A DNA stretch of 64,000 nt from Dictyoglomus turgidum DSM 6724 (lineage in GTDB: Bacteria > Dictyoglomota > Dictyoglomia > Dictyoglomales > Dictyoglomaceae): contig NC_011661.1 of NCBI RefSeq assembly GCF_000021645.1, positions 900,723 to 964,722 on the forward strand, given 5' to 3'. Each line of letters starts with the position of its first letter. Positions within the stretch are counted from its first letter, which is position 1. A program made the position numbers and the translations under genes. Of this stretch, positions 40,953-48,568 are shown piece after piece. The notes below the pieces were generated by a model. The model worked only from the letters and a program-made list of their open reading frames with translations, was not told the DNA's origin and made no database searches.

Positions 40953-41103
40953 GCATTTATTTTTATTCCCTTATACCTATTAAGGGTATAATTTTATAAA
41001 GGTATTATATAATTGCAAGAAATTGAGAAAAATTTAACAATTAATGTTTACCCACATAGGTATAATTAATAAAAATTTAAAATTATAACACATTTAAGTT
41101 TTA

Positions 41104-41133
41104 TTGACAATAATATTGTTATTGTGCTTAAAT
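41104..41133 (+). promoter_or_regulatory. Candidate promoter and operator of the hydrogenase-locus operon
   Basis: TTGACA at 41104-41109; the -10 would be TTAAAT near 41128, a weak match. A 19-bp dyad, ACAATAA-N5-TTATTGT (41107-41125), covers the end of the -35 and the spacer. Position suggests a repressor or redox-regulator site. It is not the TTGTGA-type palindrome of Rex. Confidence 0.45.
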
Positions 41134-41167: not shown

Positions 41168-41527
41168 ATGACTTTAGGAAAGGTCAGAGAAATTTTAAAG
41201 GCTCAGGTTTTGTGTGGAGAGGAAAATTTGAATAGAGAAATTTCTATTGTTGGAGCTACAGATCTCATGAGTGATGCACTATGTTTGTTAGAAGAGGGCG
41301 CATTACTTTTGACTGGACTTATAACTATACAGGTAGTAAGAACTGCAGAAATGTTGGATCTGGTGGGTGTAGTATTTGTAAGAGGAAAGATTCCTCCTAA
41401 GGATGTTATTGACCTTGCTCGTAAGTCTAATTTACCTCTTCTCTCAACCAAGTACCCTATGTATGAGGCTTGTGGATTATTGTACACCGCTGGATTTAAA
41501 GGAAAGAAGGTAGATGTTGATTCTTGA
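41168..41527 (+). CDS. DRTGG-domain protein (hydrogenase locus, copy 1)
   Basis: 119 residues comprising a single DRTGG domain: VGATDLMSDALCLLEEGALLLTG is split as TDLMSDALCLLEEG and LLLTGLITIQVVRTAEML, then VRGKIPPKDVIDLARKSNLPLLST. The domain occurs in phosphotransacetylases and CBS-linked regulatory proteins and is thought to sense a ligand. First gene of the long operon running to hydB; its last codons overlap the next start (4 bp). Closely similar to the protein at 44054. Role inferred as signalling or assembly for the hydrogenase module. Confidence 0.88.
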   Translation: MTLGKVREILKAQVLCGEENLNREISIVGATDLMSDALCLLEEGALLLTGLITIQVVRTAEMLDLVGVVFVRGKIPPKDVIDLARKSNLPLLSTKYPMYEACGLLYTAGFKGKKVDVDS

Positions 41528-42396
41528 AAATTCCCAAAGAATATCTTGAGAAGATAAAGGTTAAAGATATTATGAATACAGACATTGTAAGGCTTAGGCC
41601 TTACCAGGATATGCGTTCTATTCAAGAAATAATGAGAATTAAGAGAATTGATGCTATTCCTATTGTTGATGATTTAGAAAATCTTATTGGTCTTGTGACT
41701 GTAGAAAATGTAATTAATGCCCTCGCAAAAGGTGATATAAATGTTCCTTGTGAGAAATATATGGTGAGAGATCCTAAGTGTTTAAAGCCTGACGATAACC
41801 TTTATGAGGCGTTAATAAAGTTTAGGCGGTTTAGATTTGGAAGATTTCCTGTAGTAGACGAAAAAGGCAAGGTTCTTGGAATATTGAGCACAAAGGATAT
41901 AGTATTAAATCTTGTAGATGTTGAAGATATTGAGGGAATAAAGGAGGAAAAGAAAGAAGAAGCGGTTCTTATTCTTGAATATCCAGTAATGGGTGGAGAT
42001 TTTGCCTTAGCAGGAGTGGCATCTAGTAATGTGAAAAAAGTGCTTCAACAGCTTGGAATAGGTCCTGATATTATAAGAAAAGTTGCGGTAGTAACCTACG
42101 AGGCAGAAATGAATATTGTGATACATGCTTATAGAGGAGTTTTAAGGGTAAAAGTGACCCCTGAGTATATTGATATTGTAGCTGAGGATGAAGGACCAGG
42201 AATACCTGACATAGAATTGGCTATGCAACCTGGTTATTCTACTGCTCCCGACAACATAAGGGAGATGGGATTTGGAGCAGGGATGGGACTTCCTAATATA
42301 AAGAATTCCTCTGATGAGCTTCATATTGATTCTATAGTGGGAAGAGGAACCACAGTTCATTCAAGAATTTATTTAAAGAGGGAAAGGAATGTCTGA
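41524..42396 (+). CDS. CBS-pair plus HATPase (anti-sigma-factor-like kinase) fusion
   Basis: 290 residues. A CBS pair fills about residues 10-135 (VKDIMNTDIVRLRPYQDMRSI and KYMVRDPKCLKPDD). The rest, about 145-290, is a histidine-kinase-like ATPase fold of the RsbW/SpoIIAB kind: an N box VTYEAEMNIVIHAYRG, G1 box VAEDEGPGIPDIE and G2 box GFGAGMGLPNIK. There is no phospho-acceptor His domain. CBS domains sense adenylates, so this may report energy state to a partner by serine phosphorylation or sequestration. TTG start at 41524 overlaps the DRTGG stop. Confidence 0.9.
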   Translation: MKIPKEYLEKIKVKDIMNTDIVRLRPYQDMRSIQEIMRIKRIDAIPIVDDLENLIGLVTVENVINALAKGDINVPCEKYMVRDPKCLKPDDNLYEALIKFRRFRFGRFPVVDEKGKVLGILSTKDIVLNLVDVEDIEGIKEEKKEEAVLILEYPVMGGDFALAGVASSNVKKVLQQLGIGPDIIRKVAVVTYEAEMNIVIHAYRGVLRVKVTPEYIDIVAEDEGPGIPDIELAMQPGYSTAPDNIREMGFGAGMGLPNIKNSSDELHIDSIVGRGTTVHSRIYLKRERNV

Positions 42397-43720
42397 AAAG
42401 TATATTCATTCCGTTGCTATAAATCTTCAAAGATGTAGGGGATGTATCCACTGCATAAGGCATTGTCCTACAGAGGCAATGAGAGTAAGAAATGGTAAGT
42501 CTTTGATAATTCCTTATCGTTGTATAGATTGTGGAGAATGTATTAGAGTTTGTCCATATCATGCTCCTTTTGGTTTTACTCATACCCTTGATAGTATTGC
42601 CTATCTTGATAATATAGTAGTTATTATCTCTCCTGAATTCTATTCTCAATTTTCCACAAAATATTCTGTTGGCGATATACAGGAAGCTGTCAGAAAAGTT
42701 ACTAATGCAAAAGAAGTATGGGATACCACTTATGCTATCTATCTCCTTGAAAATGCTTTATTAGATTATGTTAATTCTTCCCATAATCTGCCTCTTATTT
42801 CCACATATTGTCCTGCAATAATTGAGCTGATTCAGGTACGTTTTCCTACTCTTATTCCTAATTTATCTCCTTTTAAGTCTCCCATTGAGATTATGGGGCA
42901 AATTATAAGAGAGTATTGGAGCAAAAATTATTCTAATGAGAAATTAAATTTGGTTTACATTACTCCCTGTCCTGCTCTTGCAAGTTATTTAAAGGAAAAT
43001 AAAGAAGAGGGAGTAGATTTTGTAATAGGCATAGATAACATTTATTTGAGAGTCAAAAAGGAACTTCAAGAAAATAAATCAGAAATATTAAAATTGTTTT
43101 ATCCTAAGGGTATTCTTTGTGGAACTTTAGGGGGAGAATCTCAGATTTTTAATGAAGAAGAAGCAATAAGTGTAGGTGGTATAGAGAAGGTTGTAAAGGT
43201 ATTGGAGGATTTGGAGAGAAATAAAATTCAAGAGATAAAGTTTTTGGAACTTAGAGCCTGTGAAGAAGGATGTGTAGGAGGAGTTTTAAATCCTGAAAAT
43301 TATTACCTGGCAAAGAAGAGAATGCACTCTATTTATAAAAATTTAGACAAAGAAAAAATTGAAAATACGAATCTGTTAAAAGATATTGCTGAAGTACATA
43401 TTTCCAAAATAGTAAGGATGTCTCCTATTTCTCCAAGACCTATATGGAAATTAGATGAAGATATTAATAAAGCTCTAAAGAAAATGGATGAGATGAAAAA
43501 AATCCTTCAGATTTTGCCTGGGCTTGATTGTGGGTCTTGTGGGGCACCCACTTGTGCATCTTTAGCAGAAGATATTGTAAGAGGTAATGCTCAGGTATAT
43601 GATTGTATCTTTCTTTTAAAAGAGAAATTATGGGAGATGGCTAAGGAAATGGAAGAATTATCAAGGAGATCTTCTTCAGTTATTTTAAAGCGGAGGGAAG
43701 AGGAGAATGAAGATCAGTGA
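42389..43720 (+). CDS. Iron-hydrogenase-like Fe-S protein, HydS-type putative redox sensor
   Basis: 443 residues: two N-terminal 4Fe-4S ferredoxin motifs (CRGCIHCIRHCP and CIDCGECIRVCP), an [FeFe]-hydrogenase H-domain, and a C-terminal PF04060 Fe-S motif (DCGSCGAPTCASLAEDIV). The H-domain keeps one Cys at each expected H-cluster ligand position: ISTYCPAI, ITPCPALAS and LRACEEGCVGG. The proton-shuttle Cys that precedes the first ligand in active enzymes (TSCCP) is Tyr here. This is the pattern of sensory or putative sensory HydS-like proteins rather than H2-producing enzymes. Overlaps neighbours by 8 and 14 bp. Confidence 0.88.
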   Translation: MSEKYIHSVAINLQRCRGCIHCIRHCPTEAMRVRNGKSLIIPYRCIDCGECIRVCPYHAPFGFTHTLDSIAYLDNIVVIISPEFYSQFSTKYSVGDIQEAVRKVTNAKEVWDTTYAIYLLENALLDYVNSSHNLPLISTYCPAIIELIQVRFPTLIPNLSPFKSPIEIMGQIIREYWSKNYSNEKLNLVYITPCPALASYLKENKEEGVDFVIGIDNIYLRVKKELQENKSEILKLFYPKGILCGTLGGESQIFNEEEAISVGGIEKVVKVLEDLERNKIQEIKFLELRACEEGCVGGVLNPENYYLAKKRMHSIYKNLDKEKIENTNLLKDIAEVHISKIVRMSPISPRPIWKLDEDINKALKKMDEMKKILQILPGLDCGSCGAPTCASLAEDIVRGNAQVYDCIFLLKEKLWEMAKEMEELSRRSSSVILKRREEENEDQ

Positions 43721-44057
43721 ATTGATAAATAAACTTGGGCTTGAGCTAATCTTTCCCTATGATGAAGATTGGGAGGTAGAAAATGGTATAGTATGTGATT
43801 TACTTTCCTTTGTAATGGCAAATGCTCCTGAGAATTCTGTATGGGTGACTATACAAACACATGTAAATACTATTGCTGTTGCAACCCTTGCAGGAATAAA
43901 AGCAATCATATTTGTTTCTGGTCAAAAACCTGATGAGGAAACTATAAAAAAGGCAAAAGAAGAAAATATTATTCTTGCTCGTACTGAAGATACCGCTTTT
44001 AACATTGTAGGGAAGTTATATGAGCTTGGAATAAAAGGAGTAAAGAGAATACAATGA
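43707..44057 (+). CDS. DRTGG-like domain protein (copy 2, divergent)
   Basis: 116 residues resembling the DRTGG fold but divergent: VENGIVCDLLSFVMANAPENS corresponds to the DRTGG D-LMSDVLA segment as VCDLLSFVMANAP, then VWVTIQTHVNTIAVATLAGI and VSGQKPDEETIKKAKEENIILAR. Located between the HydS-like gene (14 bp overlap) and the next DRTGG gene (4 bp overlap). Presumably forms an unequal pair with its neighbour. Confidence 0.82.
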   Translation: MKISELINKLGLELIFPYDEDWEVENGIVCDLLSFVMANAPENSVWVTIQTHVNTIAVATLAGIKAIIFVSGQKPDEETIKKAKEENIILARTEDTAFNIVGKLYELGIKGVKRIQ

Positions 44058-44446
44058 AAGGTAGGAGACTGGTTGAATTGATTGAAGGTAAAGCTTTAGT
44101 AGGTGAAGAAAAGCTTGATGAAATTGGTATCAAAAGGGCTTTTGCTGCTGATCTTATGAGCGATGTACTTGCAATGGTTACTTCTGAAGAGAGAGATGTG
44201 GTACTTATTACTGGTATTACAAATTCACAAATTGTAAGAACTGCTGAGATATTAGACATTCCTATGATAATAGTATGCAGAGGAAAAGTAGTGCCAAAAG
44301 ATGTTATTGATCTTGCGAAAGAGAAAGGGATAATTTTAGTAAGTACTGAAAAAATAGTTTTTGAAGTAAGCGGGATTTTGTATTCTCATGGTATTGAATC
44401 TGCAGTTATGAAGAAAAAGGTAAAGGAGGAGTACAAAAATATTTGA
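44054..44446 (+). CDS. DRTGG-domain protein (copy 3)
   Basis: 130 residues, one DRTGG domain with the canonical RAFAADLMSDVLAMV, VLITGITNSQIVRTAEIL and VCRGKVVPKDVIDLAKEKG. Paralogue of the first gene of the operon (41168). Starts in the stop of the preceding DRTGG-like gene and overlaps the PHP gene by 4 bp. Such proteins accompany HydABC-type hydrogenase clusters in Thermotogae and Clostridia; their biochemical job is not known. Confidence 0.87.
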   Translation: MKGRRLVELIEGKALVGEEKLDEIGIKRAFAADLMSDVLAMVTSEERDVVLITGITNSQIVRTAEILDIPMIIVCRGKVVPKDVIDLAKEKGIILVSTEKIVFEVSGILYSHGIESAVMKKKVKEEYKNI

Positions 44447-45192
44447 CTTGGATTGGAGTAGATCTTCATATTCATACCATACTTTCTCCTTGTGGAGACT
44501 GGAATATGAGCCCTAAAAAGATAGTTGAAAAAGCAAAAGAAATTGGATTAGGAATAATAGGGATAACTGATCACCACATGGTAGAAAATTTCCCTGCAGT
44601 TTCCTATTGGGGAGAGAAAATGGATATTTTAGTTATTCCTGGAATGGAAATTCAAACAAGAGAAGAAGTTCATGTACTAGGATTGTTTAAAAATTACAGT
44701 TCAGCGTATGAGTTTCAAAAAGAAATTTGGAATCATTTACCTGATAAAAAGAATGATGAGAATCTTTTTGGAGTTCAAGTAGTGGTTAATGAAAAAGATG
44801 AGGTAGAAAGAATTGAAGAAAGGTTATTGTTAACCTCAACAAATTTATCCTTAGAAGGAGTGACGAAGTTAATAAGAAAGTTTGATGGATTTATAATTCT
44901 TGCTCATATTGATAAACCTAATTTCAGTGTGCTTTCTAACTTGGGATTTATACCAGAAAATTTAGACTATGATTTACTTGAATTATCGAAGGAAGTAAAA
45001 ATTGAGAAATTTTTGAGGGATAATTATGGTTTAATATCAAAAAAAAATAACTTTATAATTTCTTCTGATGCTCACTATTTAGATGATATTAAAAAACCAA
45101 GAACTTTCATAGGTGTAGAGGGTTTAACAATTGAAGATGTCTTCTTTAGCTTAAAAAATAAAATTATAAAAATAGAAGAAATGGAGGTATAG
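44443..45192 (+). CDS. PHP-domain phosphoesterase
   Basis: 249 residues of the PHP superfamily: metal ligands in DLHIHTILSPCGDW, GITDHHMVEN and the C-terminal IISSDAHYLDDI, with GMEIQTREEVHVLGLF in between. Family members hydrolyse phosphate esters or nucleotides. In this operon it could act on a signalling nucleotide sensed by the CBS or DRTGG proteins; that is inference. TTG start at 44443 with GGAGGAG upstream. hydC follows after 2 bp. Confidence 0.9.
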   Translation: MTWIGVDLHIHTILSPCGDWNMSPKKIVEKAKEIGLGIIGITDHHMVENFPAVSYWGEKMDILVIPGMEIQTREEVHVLGLFKNYSSAYEFQKEIWNHLPDKKNDENLFGVQVVVNEKDEVERIEERLLLTSTNLSLEGVTKLIRKFDGFIILAHIDKPNFSVLSNLGFIPENLDYDLLELSKEVKIEKFLRDNYGLISKKNNFIISSDAHYLDDIKKPRTFIGVEGLTIEDVFFSLKNKIIKIEEMEV

Positions 45193-45194
45193 TT

Positions 45195-45683
45195 ATGGCA
45201 GTAGAGCTAAAGTTTTCAGATTATGCCCAGAGAGAATTGGAAAAAATCTTAGATCAATTTTCCTCTACTAAAGGTTCACTTATTATGATATTGCATGCAA
45301 TTCAAGAAAAGTTTGGTTATCTTCCTAAAGAAGCTTTAGAGATGGTATCTGAAAAACTAAAGATCCCGTTAAGTGAGATCTATGGAGTAGTGACTTTTTA
45401 TTCCTTCTTTAGGTTGGAGCCTCAAGGTAAACATGTGATTAGACTCTGTATGGGTACTGCCTGTTATGTTAAAGGAGCAGCAGATCTATTAACAGCTTTA
45501 GAGCAGATAGGACTCAAAGAGGGTAAAGTAACTGAAGATGGTTATTTCTCTTTGGATCTTGTAAGGTGTATTGGTGCTTGTAGTATGGCTCCTGCTCTTA
45601 TGATTGACGAAGAAGTATATGGAAAGCTTACTCCTGATAAATTGAAAAAATTGATAGAGAACTTCAGAAAAGAACATCAATGA
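45195..45683 (+). CDS. hydC: Hydrogenase/NADH dehydrogenase gamma subunit HydC (NuoE-like)
   Basis: 162-residue thioredoxin-fold [2Fe-2S] subunit. Cluster ligands are visible as LCMGTACYVKGA (Cys-x4-Cys) and RCIGACSMAP (Cys-x3-Cys). The N-terminal helical part has KFGYLPKEALEMVSEKL and YGVVTFYSFFRLEP, typical of NuoE and HydC. In trimeric bifurcating hydrogenases it carries electrons between the HydB flavin and HydA. The genes that follow it encode a HATPase protein, a ferredoxin-like protein and HydB. Confidence 0.94.
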   Translation: MAVELKFSDYAQRELEKILDQFSSTKGSLIMILHAIQEKFGYLPKEALEMVSEKLKIPLSEIYGVVTFYSFFRLEPQGKHVIRLCMGTACYVKGAADLLTALEQIGLKEGKVTEDGYFSLDLVRCIGACSMAPALMIDEEVYGKLTPDKLKKLIENFRKEHQ

Positions 45684-46216
45684 AAGAATTGTCTCTTCAT
45701 TTGTTGGATTTGGTGCAAAATTCTATAGAGGCTGGAGCTAGAAATATTTATATTGAGATGAAGAAGGATTTGGAAAATAAAAAATTGTTTTTAAAGATAA
45801 AGGATGATGGAAAAGGAATTCCTCCTGAGGTTTTGGAGGAATTAAAGAATCCCTTTTTTACTACAAGAAAAACCAGAAAGGTGGGTTTAGGGATTCCTTT
45901 ATTCTGGGAATTAGTAAGAAGTTGCAATGGAAATCTAAATGTTAGATCAGAAATAGGGAAAGGAACGGAAATTATTGCAGAAGTTCCTTATGATTGCATT
46001 GATCTTCCTCCTTTGGGGGATATTTCAGGCACCATTTTGTCTCTTATAGTAGCAAACCCTGATTTAAATTTAAACTTTAAATTTGAAAAGAACGGAGACA
46101 TTTTTGAATTTTCTACCGAAGATTTGAAAAGGGAATTAAATGGTATTCCCTTAAATAGTTTAGAAGTTATCTCCTTTTTAAAAAAATATATTTATGAAAA
46201 TTTGGGAGGTTGGTAA
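45680..46216 (+). CDS. HATPase-fold protein (histidine-kinase-like ATPase only)
   Basis: 178 residues with a GHKL ATPase fold but no dimerisation/phospho-acceptor domain: N box LLDLVQNSIEAGARNI, G1 KIKDDGKGIPPEV, F box NPFFTTRKTRKVGLGI and G2 in GLGIPLF, then GKGTEIIAEVP. The C-terminal ~60 residues are unassigned. Similar proteins sit in hydrogenase clusters of Thermotogae and Clostridia between hydC and hydB. Overlaps hydC by 4 bp. Probably an ATP-dependent regulator of the complex or of a partner. Confidence 0.88.
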   Translation: MKELSLHLLDLVQNSIEAGARNIYIEMKKDLENKKLFLKIKDDGKGIPPEVLEELKNPFFTTRKTRKVGLGIPLFWELVRSCNGNLNVRSEIGKGTEIIAEVPYDCIDLPPLGDISGTILSLIVANPDLNLNFKFEKNGDIFEFSTEDLKRELNGIPLNSLEVISFLKKYIYENLGGW

Positions 46217-46218
46217 AA

Positions 46219-46590
46219 ATGAGTAAAAAACTTACTATTGAGGACCTCAAAAAAATTAAAGAGAAAGCTCAGGCAGACCTTGAGGCAAGGAGTGCTGAGG
46301 GTAAAGACAAAATAGTGGTACATATGGGGACATGTGGAATTGCTGCAGGTGCAAGAGAAACTTTACTTGCAATCCTAGATGAAATAGAAAAGAGAAATTT
46401 AAAGAATGTAGTAGTGACCCAAGCTGGGTGTATTGGTCTTTGCGAATACGAGCCTTTAATATCAGTAGAAAAAGTAGGAAGCTCTAAGGTTTTATATAAG
46501 CATGTCACCCCAGAAAAGGCAAGAAAGATTATTGCTCAGCATATTGTTAACGGACAAATTGTTACTGAAGACGTACTTTCTACAGAATAA
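46219..46590 (+). CDS. Small [2Fe-2S] ferredoxin-like protein (HndB type)
   Basis: 123 residues, thioredoxin-like. The ligand pattern is HMGTCGIAAGA and AGCIGLCEYEP, giving three cysteines where NuoE-type proteins have four; the first Cys position is His. This three-cysteine form is normal for the HndB family of NADP-reducing hydrogenase operons. ATG at 46219 is preferred: GGGAGGT is eight bases upstream, while the in-frame TTG at 46210 overlaps it. hydB follows after 33 bp. Confidence 0.88.
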   Translation: MSKKLTIEDLKKIKEKAQADLEARSAEGKDKIVVHMGTCGIAAGARETLLAILDEIEKRNLKNVVVTQAGCIGLCEYEPLISVEKVGSSKVLYKHVTPEKARKIIAQHIVNGQIVTEDVLSTE

Positions 46591-46623
46591 GATTAACACA
46601 TCATAGGATAAGGAGGTTTAAAG

Positions 46624-48414
46624 ATGCCAGAGAGAGCGCACATTTTAATATGTGCAGGAGCAGCATGTATTTCTGCAGGAGAGGAAAGTTTTAAGTCTGC
46701 CCTTGAAAGGGAGCTTAAAGAGGCGGGAATTTACGATGAGGTAAAGATAATTGAAACGGGCTGTTTTGGGACCTGCGATTTAGGTCCTGTGATGGCTATT
46801 TATCCTGAAGGTACTTTTTACATAAGATTAAAGCCTCAAGATGCCAAAGATATTGTTCATGAGCATCTCCTTAAAGGTAGAGTAGTAGAAAGACTTCTTG
46901 TTAAGGAGCCAGAATTAAAGAAAACAATTCCTACTATTAATGAATTACCTTTCTTTAAAAATCAGGTAAGAATAGCATTGAGAAATGTGGGCTTTATTGA
47001 TCCGTTAAATATTGAAGAGTATATAGCTAGAGATGGCTATTCTGCCCTTGCAAAGGTTCTTACAGAGATGAAGCCCGAAGAGGTAATAGAAGAGGTGAAG
47101 AAGTCAGGCCTTAGAGGTAGAGGTGGAGCAGGGTTTCCAACAGGCTTAAAGTGGGAGCTTGGAAGAAAAGCAAAGGGAGAAGAGAAATATATTGTTTGTA
47201 ATGCCGATGAGGGTGACCCTGGAGCTTTCATGGACAGAAGTATTATGGAAGGAGATCCTCATTCGGTAATTGAGGGAATGTTAATTGGGGGATACGCGAT
47301 TGGTGCTAAAAAGGGATTTGTTTATATAAGAGCAGAGTATCCTCTTGCTATCAAAAGGCTTACAGTAGCACTGGAACAAGCAAGGAATTACGGAATTTTA
47401 GGAGAGAATATTCTTGGAACTGATTTTTCTTTTGATATTGAAATAAGAATAGGAGCAGGGGCTTTTGTATGTGGTGAAGAGACAGCTTTAATTGCCTCTA
47501 TTGAAGGTAAGAGGGGAATGCCGAGACCAAGACCTCCTTTCCCTGTTAATTCAGGTCTTTGGGGTAAGCCTACTGTTATTAACAACGTGGAAACTTGGGC
47601 AAATATCCCTCCAATAATTTTGAACGGAGCAGAGTGGTTTAGTAGTTTTGGAACAGAAAAAAGCAAAGGCACAAAGGTTTTTGCTCTTGCAGGAAAGATA
47701 AATATGACTGGTCTTATTGAGGTTCCCATGGGTATTACCTTAAGGGAAGTAGTATATGATATTGGTGGAGGAATTCCTGGGGGTAAGAAATTTAAAGCGG
47801 TGCAGATAGGAGGTCCTGCGGGAGGCTGTATTCCGGCAGAATATCTTGATACTCCAATAGACTACGAATCTATAACTGCTCTTGGAGCCATAATGGGTTC
47901 TGGTGGTCTCATTGTGATGGATGAAGATAATTGTATGGTGGATGTAGCTAAGTTCTTCCTTTCTTTCACTCAGGATGAGTCCTGTGGAAAATGTGTACCT
48001 TGTAGGGTGGGTACAAAGAGAATGTTAGATATTCTTGACAAGATTACTAAAGGTGAAGGTACAGAGGAAGACTTAGTAGAGTTAGAGGAGCTTGCTTATA
48101 CGGTAAGAAATACTTCTCTATGTGGTCTTGGTAAGGGGGCTCCGAACCCTGTACTTACTACTCTTAAATATTTCAGAGATGAATATTTAGCCCATATTAG
48201 AGATAAAAAATGTCCTGCTAAGGTATGTACCGCATTAATCCATTATGAGGTGATAAGAGAAGAATGCAGAAAATGTTCCATATGTTTTAGAAACTGTCCT
48301 GTAGGAGCAATTTATAAAGATGAAGATGGAACTTATGTAATAGATCAATCTAAATGTACAAAGTGCGGAATCTGTTTCCAAGTGTGTCCATTTAGTGCTA
48401 TTAAGAAGGAGTAA
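46624..48414 (+). CDS. hydB: Hydrogenase/NADH dehydrogenase flavin subunit HydB (NuoF-like)
   Basis: 596 residues, the full HydB layout. N-terminal [2Fe-2S] thioredoxin-like domain (ICAGAACISAG and ETGCFGTCDLGP, residues 1-95), NuoF core with SGLRGRGGAGFPTGLKWE (NADH/FMN site) and the Glu-rich CNADEGDPGAFMDRS, SLBB domain, N3-type 4Fe-4S site ESCGKCVPCRVGTKR, and two C-terminal 4Fe-4S ferredoxin motifs (CRKCSICFRNCP, CTKCGICFQVCP). It passes electrons between NADH and iron-sulphur carriers. The catalytic HydA subunit is not adjacent; the next gene is xylB. Confidence 0.94.
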   Translation: MPERAHILICAGAACISAGEESFKSALERELKEAGIYDEVKIIETGCFGTCDLGPVMAIYPEGTFYIRLKPQDAKDIVHEHLLKGRVVERLLVKEPELKKTIPTINELPFFKNQVRIALRNVGFIDPLNIEEYIARDGYSALAKVLTEMKPEEVIEEVKKSGLRGRGGAGFPTGLKWELGRKAKGEEKYIVCNADEGDPGAFMDRSIMEGDPHSVIEGMLIGGYAIGAKKGFVYIRAEYPLAIKRLTVALEQARNYGILGENILGTDFSFDIEIRIGAGAFVCGEETALIASIEGKRGMPRPRPPFPVNSGLWGKPTVINNVETWANIPPIILNGAEWFSSFGTEKSKGTKVFALAGKINMTGLIEVPMGITLREVVYDIGGGIPGGKKFKAVQIGGPAGGCIPAEYLDTPIDYESITALGAIMGSGGLIVMDEDNCMVDVAKFFLSFTQDESCGKCVPCRVGTKRMLDILDKITKGEGTEEDLVELEELAYTVRNTSLCGLGKGAPNPVLTTLKYFRDEYLAHIRDKKCPAKVCTALIHYEVIREECRKCSICFRNCPVGAIYKDEDGTYVIDQSKCTKCGICFQVCPFSAIKKE

Positions 48415-48452
48415 AAAAGGGGGGGGGATTATTTTTTCCCCCTACTTTTTTA
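48413..48452 (+). terminator. Probable terminator after hydB
   Basis: G-rich run (nine G at 48419-48427) able to pair with CCCCC at 48438-48442, flanked by A6 upstream and T6 downstream. Ends the hydrogenase operon. The G run is intergenic. Confidence 0.65.
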
Positions 48453-48531: not shown

Positions 48532-48568
48532 CTAATAAAAAATCATATTGAGAAGTGGGGTGAATAAT

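Follow-up and report, generated by a model that had tools for sequence, protein, structure and literature searches.

A window of 64,000 nucleotides from Dictyoglomus turgidum DSM 6724, whose genome is a single contig of 1,855,560 bases, holds an operon of ten genes (41168-48414) encoding, in this order, a DRTGG protein (D), a kinase (W), a HydS-like Fe–S protein (S), a second DRTGG protein (d), a further DRTGG protein, a PHP protein (P), HydC, a HATPase (H), a thioredoxin-like ferredoxin (F) and HydB. All window features described below lie on the + strand. The same letters are used for the counterparts in other genomes, and comparison with these shows that D-W-S-d-P is a real travelling cassette. 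On balance, the cassette together with H probably exerts phosphorylation-based control over HydBC-type NAD/ferredoxin-linked electron-bifurcating enzymes; of the possible roles, that of a redox-gated kinase module is the most likely, rather than that of an H2 sensor or a set for [FeFe] maturation. This reading builds on gene order, folds, motifs, fusions, co-occurrence and the loss of a cofactor pocket in S, all of which were directly observed.

Two collections of loci were used for comparing gene neighbourhoods. A scan of genome contigs yielded 555 confirmed loci, and since only the best 80 were taken, this set is biased towards similarity. In a domain-wide sample of 386 genomes 42 had an S-family match at 1e-60, some of these being longer sensory forms, and neighbourhoods were obtained from 25 of the 42 besides seven earlier ones. 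W lies directly 5′ of S in 107 of 112 loci; both are fused in two loci, one open reading frame (ORF) lies between them in two, and S stands at a contig end in one. The W-S fusions are those of L078 (607 amino acids (aa); domains scanned) and L083 (604 aa). In L195 (266 aa) and L196 (277 aa) D and W form a single protein, with the DRTGG part scoring 20.5 against a Pfam cut-off of 25.2 in L195. Among 28 unbiased loci outside Dictyoglomota W was present in 28, D in 27, d in 25, P in 21, H in 18, HydC in 16, HydB in 15, an A-type subunit in 12 and F in 11, and locus comparison showed S to be linked to W more tightly than to HydBC. Relative to HydC-H-F-HydB-HydA the cassette is found directly upstream, in divergent orientation, standing alone or represented by W-S only. 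As the arrangement recurs in other phyla, it is not due to chance. The initial annotation of the window had named independent travel of these genes as evidence against a common module; the neighbourhoods show that they travel together.

W (41524-42396, TTG start) consists of a CBS pair fused to a SpoIIAB-type GHKL kinase domain (Pfam: two CBS and HATPase_c_2). In the structural model the kinase half matches SpoIIAB (1til; Z 18.3, rmsd 2.1, 134 residues) and the N-terminal half AMP-type CBS pairs (Z up to 20). Motif counts were made over all called members, with members carrying a second called domain left out; E193, N197, D222, G224, G226, G249, G251 and G253 of W are kept in 108/108. The RsbW-like kinase fold proposed initially was thereby confirmed by fold and ATP-site motifs, while the adenylate-sensing CBS pair had to be given up as a core part. 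W has no CBS in most loci (about 140–165 aa); the pair occurs in Dictyoglomota and genome G052, and among the other loci it was confirmed in L042 (of G052) only.

D (41168-41527) matches DRTGG in Pfam (E 4.8e-8), and its model belongs to the DRTGG fold (2ioj, Z 17.3; DRTGG of a CBS-pyrophosphatase, Z 14.8). It has the invariant motif D32xxS35...T49, with D32 and S35 kept in 96/96 and S35 at the start of a predicted helix. The divergent protein d (43707-44057) is assigned to this fold by a weak Pfam match (E 0.002, below cut-off; HPr-kinase N-domain 8.9e-5) and shows the invariant motif D31xxS34...T48 (D31 and S34 in 95/95 ungapped rows, T48 in 96/96). The DRTGG domain of E. coli Pta has R and P in place of the D and S and shares the T. 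The second D-type protein (44054-44446; DRTGG 25.0 bits, cut-off 25.2) is an additional copy present in the five Dictyoglomota loci. P (44443-45192, TTG start) is a PHP-family phosphoesterase by Pfam with conserved metal ligands, eight presumed ligand positions being kept in 88-89 of 89 proteins. In H (45680-46216), a free-standing histidine-kinase-type ATPase (Pfam HATPase_c), D10, N14, D42, G44, G69 and G71 are kept in 72/72 and G46 in 69; we take the counted W and H positions to be the boxes of the ATP site. The conservation of D-W-S-d-P and H as a non-structural set, their intact motifs for the ATP site and the phosphoesterase, and the W-S and D-W fusions partly uphold the initial view of a signalling circuit instead of structural subunits. 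That the circuit is complete is unproven, no known output protein being encoded in the operon.

HydA and HydF were searched for in 35 genomes with S. A HydA-grade Fe_hyd_lg_C match (at least 250 bits) was found in 21 and not in 14 (G005, G052, G358, G095, G235, G350, G216, G185, G171, G323, G256, G357, G333 and G198; three of the 14 are drafts of 83-86% completeness), and HydF was over cut-off in 0/14 of the latter. Since the cassette persists in these 14 genomes, its genes cannot be only [FeFe] H-cluster maturation factors. Such a role, which the initial annotation had listed as a possible refutation of its view, was rejected. HydB is present in 33/33 unbiased cassette genomes (in the locus or by search; G258, G267 and G115 are outside this count) and in 11/11 additional named genomes.

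The catalytic neighbours vary. Pterin-type A subunits with NuoG-like N-termini adjoin the cassette in L184, L043, L194 and L195 (scanned) and, by matching layout only, in L188, L191 and L196. Those of L184, L188 and L191 have 1256-1279 aa; the L184 chain combines the NuoG-like N-terminus with a GltD/NfnB-like flavoprotein domain and a molybdopterin oxidoreductase domain. Where HydA proteins stand next to or near the cassette, 47 of 50 have C-S, not C-C, in the first H-cluster motif (TSCSP type). Other neighbours are an Nfn-like fused protein of 785 aa (L180), flavin oxidoreductases (L185) and RnfD/RnfE/RnfA (L042); those in Atribacterota, cell-wall and division genes, are uninformative on the partner. 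In L042 (5146-9104) membrane subunits resembling RnfD, RnfE and RnfA come after HydB; RnfG, RnfB and RnfC are missing from the stretch, and the products possibly form a HydBC-Rnf hybrid complex. This arrangement prompted the idea that HydBC substitutes for RnfC in Dictyoglomota, which was rejected, as the rnf loci of D. turgidum and G005 are complete (RnfC, D, G, E, A, B; read from the sequences, no family scan).

That the cassette accompanies HydB regardless of the catalytic subunit, and that H and F lie between HydC and HydB in most HydABC-type operons, would also fit a set for assembly or repair of HydBC-type enzymes. W and H would then be ATP-driven chaperones of the GHKL fold, S and F would deliver Fe–S clusters or electrons, and P and D/d would handle a nucleotide or flavin ligand. 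We regard this as unlikely: W is nearest in fold and motif to SpoIIAB kinases, not to chaperones, its fusion to CBS suggests signal input, and many HydB-bearing genomes presumably lack the cassette.

S (42389-43720) is a group D [FeFe]-hydrogenase-derived Fe–S protein (Pfam: Fe_hyd_lg_C, FeS (PF04060) and two Fer4). Two N-terminal [4Fe-4S] motifs, the H-domain, a C-terminal Cx2Cx4Cx16C (C381, C384, C389, C406) and no PAS domain give it the architecture of group D (M2e). The four [4Fe-4S]H cysteines are kept in the window protein and in 88/88 aligned rows; in a larger set of 113 S proteins these cubane cysteines are likewise kept, C499 being His in one. The [2Fe]-holding lysine and the open pocket of group D are lost in the window protein, with Leu for K358, Tyr for C299 and Glu for S232. 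All five Dictyoglomota proteins share this loss (K358 replaced by L, L, Q, E and E; C299 by Y; S232 by E). Across the family K358 was kept in 83/88 proteins of the first alignment and lost in 8/113 of the larger set, namely the five from Dictyoglomota, G140 (R), and G177 and G314 (H). The C299 position is Ala or Ser in 32/44 S proteins from HydF-positive genomes vs. 3/20 from HydF-negative ones (Fisher p 2.5e-5, ancestry uncorrected), the three HydF-negative cases being draft metagenome-assembled genomes (L054, L071, L097). In a tree of the 113 proteins, built by a quick method with midpoint root and showing many open forks, the Ala/Ser proteins fall mainly into one clade of 84 rows and K358 loss occurs in three places. 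From the K358 losses, the C299 pattern and the tree it follows that the family extends beyond S of the type of TamHydS from Thermoanaerobacter mathranii. A precedent for sensory hydrogenases lacking H-cluster motifs is group C1 of Hydrogenedentota (PMC11406978).

S could also be an ordinary group D sensory [FeFe]-hydrogenase, the module reporting H2 to control a hydrogenase as proposed for TamHydS. The architecture including C-x2-C-x4-C-x16-C and the lysine kept in most S proteins favour this, as does TamHydS itself, which is active and encoded upstream of HydABC (PMC8163306). Against it stand the altered pocket in five of five Dictyoglomota loci, the result that neither HydF nor HydG was over cut-off in any of 7 Dictyoglomota genomes (HydE was not searched), and the persistence of the cassette without HydA. 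Taken together, this makes an H2-sensing system very improbable. The window operon does not have the group D position upstream of a complete HydABC, as it holds HydC and HydB with HydA 380 kb off. Little probability is likewise left for S as a structural electron-transfer subunit replacing HydA in an orphan HydB-HydC-S-F NADH:ferredoxin complex with the small proteins as accessories, for although the operon combines HydB, HydC and a HydA-fold Fe–S protein without HydA, and G005 without HydA keeps a HydB 91% identical to that of the window, S also stands beside full HydABC, its tie to W is tighter than that to HydBC, and a NiFe-type HydA is available in those genomes.

In the control cassette as we propose it, S would take electrons via its ferredoxin domain and so report how reduced the ferredoxin pool is; in those lineages whose H-cluster is intact it could sense H2 too. 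S would be held against W, a putative SpoIIAB-type ATP-dependent serine kinase, and would alter its activity. We infer the S-W contact from fusion and adjacency, and each later step, with the kinase reaction, its substrate, the direction of control and the target, is a deduction. D and d with their invariant Ser would be the likeliest substrates or adaptors of W. The D-W gene order resembles that of spoIIAA-spoIIAB, which favours D as the W substrate. PHP and a SpoIIE-type phosphatase encoded elsewhere in the genome are candidate opponents of W. Phosphorylated D/d may then act on HydB/HydC, affecting activity, assembly or partner choice, and in Dictyoglomota and G052 the CBS pair may add an adenylate input to W. 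The Dictyoglomus version would comprise a sensor without [2Fe] pocket, a CBS-bearing kinase and the HydBC probably of a NiFe-HydABCSL enzyme. A more specific form of this mechanism, which we put forward tentatively and consider rather unlikely, is partner switching in which DRTGG replaces STAS, S gates W, phosphatases reverse the Ser phosphorylation of D/d, and the output is the HydBC core and not a sigma factor; such an output could for example be the choice of catalytic subunits, or of two HydBC pairs (bifurcating or cluster-poor).

Several observations weigh against phosphorylation-based control of HydBC. The invariant Ser of D and d could bind a ligand instead, and the Ser-less DRTGG domain of E. 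coli Pta is one control only. Among the ten operon proteins Pfam revealed neither a STAS protein nor a sigma factor nor any other known output, certain loci hold just W and S without D/d, and the 33/33 genomes with HydB cover S-bearing genomes only, without a base rate, so that this figure may in part be a property of strict anaerobes as such. Among the rows without K358 are genomes that have both HydA and HydF (G140, G177, G314); pocket loss therefore does not simply follow maturation loss, and an explanation by loss of the maturases was set aside as not clean. Finally, the window HydC is closest to NfnC and not to NiFe-HydC and a third HydBC-like pair is present, which leaves more than one candidate for the enzyme served in Dictyoglomus.

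The candidates for this enzyme were sought throughout the genome. Three Fe_hyd_lg_C proteins are encoded: besides S of the window these are a HydS-type protein and HydA at 555-561 kb, where the sole [FeFe]-HydABC lies 380 kb from the window operon. The order in this second locus (L006) is HydS-type protein, SpoIIE-type phosphatase (PF07228, 8.6e-18), HydC, HydB, HydA and Rex. HydA (L006:14026-16026) and the HydS-type protein (L006:8890-10515), given for G000, are found also in G001-G004 and G006, and their pocket residues were checked in the G000 copies; the Dictyoglomota genome G005 has no HydA. Near 74 kb a NuoG/HydA-type protein of 559 aa, with NiFe-HydABCSL subunit A as best solved match (7t2r_A, E 5e-65), is encoded with NiFe small and large subunits, HypA and a ParA/NUBPL-type P-loop NTPase, and no HydB or HydC adjoins this NiFe-HydA/S/L set. 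The set occurs without B and C in D. turgidum, G005 and G052, and NiFe-type HydA is the only PF10588 protein in G005, G052 and G358 (neighbours not read in G358). HydB of the window (46624-48414), a NuoF-like FMN subunit, has all extra cluster sites of bifurcating enzymes, an N-terminal [2Fe-2S] and two C-terminal [4Fe-4S] besides the NuoF core with intact cysteines, and thus qualifies as HydBC (BfuBC) type, with no A subunit in the same operon. It scores 956 bits with NiFe-HydB (7t2r_B), 892 with FeFe-HydB (7q4v_B) and 736 with 7p5h_B; the NuoE-like [2Fe-2S] subunit HydC (45195-45683; Pfam E 9e-51) scores 172 bits with NfnC (9n5u_C), 155 with HydC 8a6t_C and 154 with NiFe-HydC. With moderate confidence only, we regard the window HydBC as belonging to a NiFe-HydABCSL enzyme, the A, S and L genes of which sit elsewhere. 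In the third HydC/HydB-like pair, HydB has neither the extra cluster cysteines nor the ferredoxin part at its C-terminus, and the pair may serve the NiFe enzyme as an alternative, non-bifurcating diaphorase. It is located at L206:5200-7295, L207:3617-5775 and L208:4118-6213 and adjoins HypD/HypE-like genes in G052 by our reading of the sequence.

The operon is preceded by a promoter-like pair TTGACA-18 nt-TTAAAT (41104-41133), found with identical elements and spacing 5′ of D in 5/5 Dictyoglomota loci, and a terminator-like hairpin (48418-48443) directly follows HydB at the operon end. From these boundaries the transcription unit appears to contain HydC and HydB and no HydA, and, contrary to the initial annotation, the genes are in the plain sense not located inside a hydrogenase operon. 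For the nine genes at 41168-46590 order, coordinates and strand were correct in the initial annotation; HydB is the tenth gene, 3′ of these. Neighbouring genes overlap by 4–14 nt, as announced by the description "almost all overlapping", except for gaps of 2 nt (P/HydC) and 33 nt (F/HydB). The absence of a DNA-binding domain was likewise borne out, helix-turn-helix (HTH), sigma and STAS matches all being below the Pfam cut-off in the ten proteins. Control by Rex was considered and rejected: the best Rex-like site (41023-41040) has two mismatches to what we take to be the consensus, 14 pattern matches compare with 14.6 expected, and other Dictyoglomota do not conserve the site. By position H corresponds to HisK of NiFe-HydABCSL operons and F (46210-46590; thioredoxin-like [2Fe-2S] protein, Pfam 24.2, cut-off 24.8) to HydD. 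F has three of the four usual cluster cysteines (C42, C74 and C78 in 95% and Ala at position 46 in 96% of 56 rows), and its cluster would therefore need another ligand or be absent. A xylulokinase-like gene follows at 48548 (own reading, FGGY match of a relative).

Sensory hydrogenases of group D (M2e) have been described as lying 5′ of bifurcating hydrogenases, often with a histidine/serine kinase between them, and a regulatory relation was suggested (BMC Microbiology 2012, PMC3561251). For TamHydS the biochemistry was reported, with a histidine kinase-like ATPase and an AraC regulator flanking (Land 2020, PMC8163306); in a 2026 paper H2 did not reduce the C-terminal cluster, and identifying partners was called critical to clarify signalling (PMC13104023). 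The initial statement that the biochemistry is undescribed therefore has to be narrowed in view of these papers, as far as their sections considered here go. No description of the five-gene cassette was found in the open-access literature searched, including for DRTGG with hydrogenase, and compared with the cited sections D, d and P as partners, the fusions and the cassette without HydA are apparently new. S resembles TamHydS in domain order, the four cubane cysteines, the C-terminal Cx2Cx4Cx16C, the lack of PAS and a Thr/Ser at M353; in contrast to TamHydS, the Dictyoglomota proteins have lost the pocket residues and their operon has no HydA, and the W/D/d/P partner set is absent from those sections of the TamHydS descriptions (PMC8163306, PMC13104023).

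W shares with the anti-sigma serine kinases SpoIIAB/RsbW its fold, the N, G1 and G2 box residues and a small partner gene just 5′. It differs in having a DRTGG and not a STAS partner (STAS and sigma factor in 0/ten operon proteins) and in its CBS, S or D fusions in some lineages. As in NiFe-HydABCSL of Acetomicrobium mobile, its closest solved relative for HydB, the window has H and F at the HisK and HydD positions, the products of which lie outside the holoenzyme in the portions of the two studies used here (Feng 2022, Schut 2022; PMC8880783, PMC9304861), and NiFe-HydA/S/L is found in genomes carrying the window-type HydB; unlike there, the B and C genes are apart from A, S and L, and D-W-S-d-P is added. 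Within D. turgidum itself L006 offers a parallel, with a HydS-type Fe–S protein and a Ser/Thr-type regulator adjoining HydCBA, and differs by a phosphatase in place of the kinase, the adjacent Rex and the retained H-cluster lysine. The sensory hydrogenase of L006 would presumably be named group C3.

By fusions and near-invariant adjacency, W can be named as the candidate partner of group D proteins and D as the neighbour of W. Finding the cassette in genomes that have neither HydA nor HydF, and with a broken pocket, would change the view of these proteins: instead of sensing H2 they would control electron bifurcation. If partner switching were true, a larger family of sensors that mostly read redox state would include the group D "sensory hydrogenases" as one branch reading H2. 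The cassette is a concrete candidate for how electron-bifurcating enzymes are controlled, and it would show how cells set the flow among NADH, ferredoxin and H2 or formate, which is relevant to fermentation and syntrophy.

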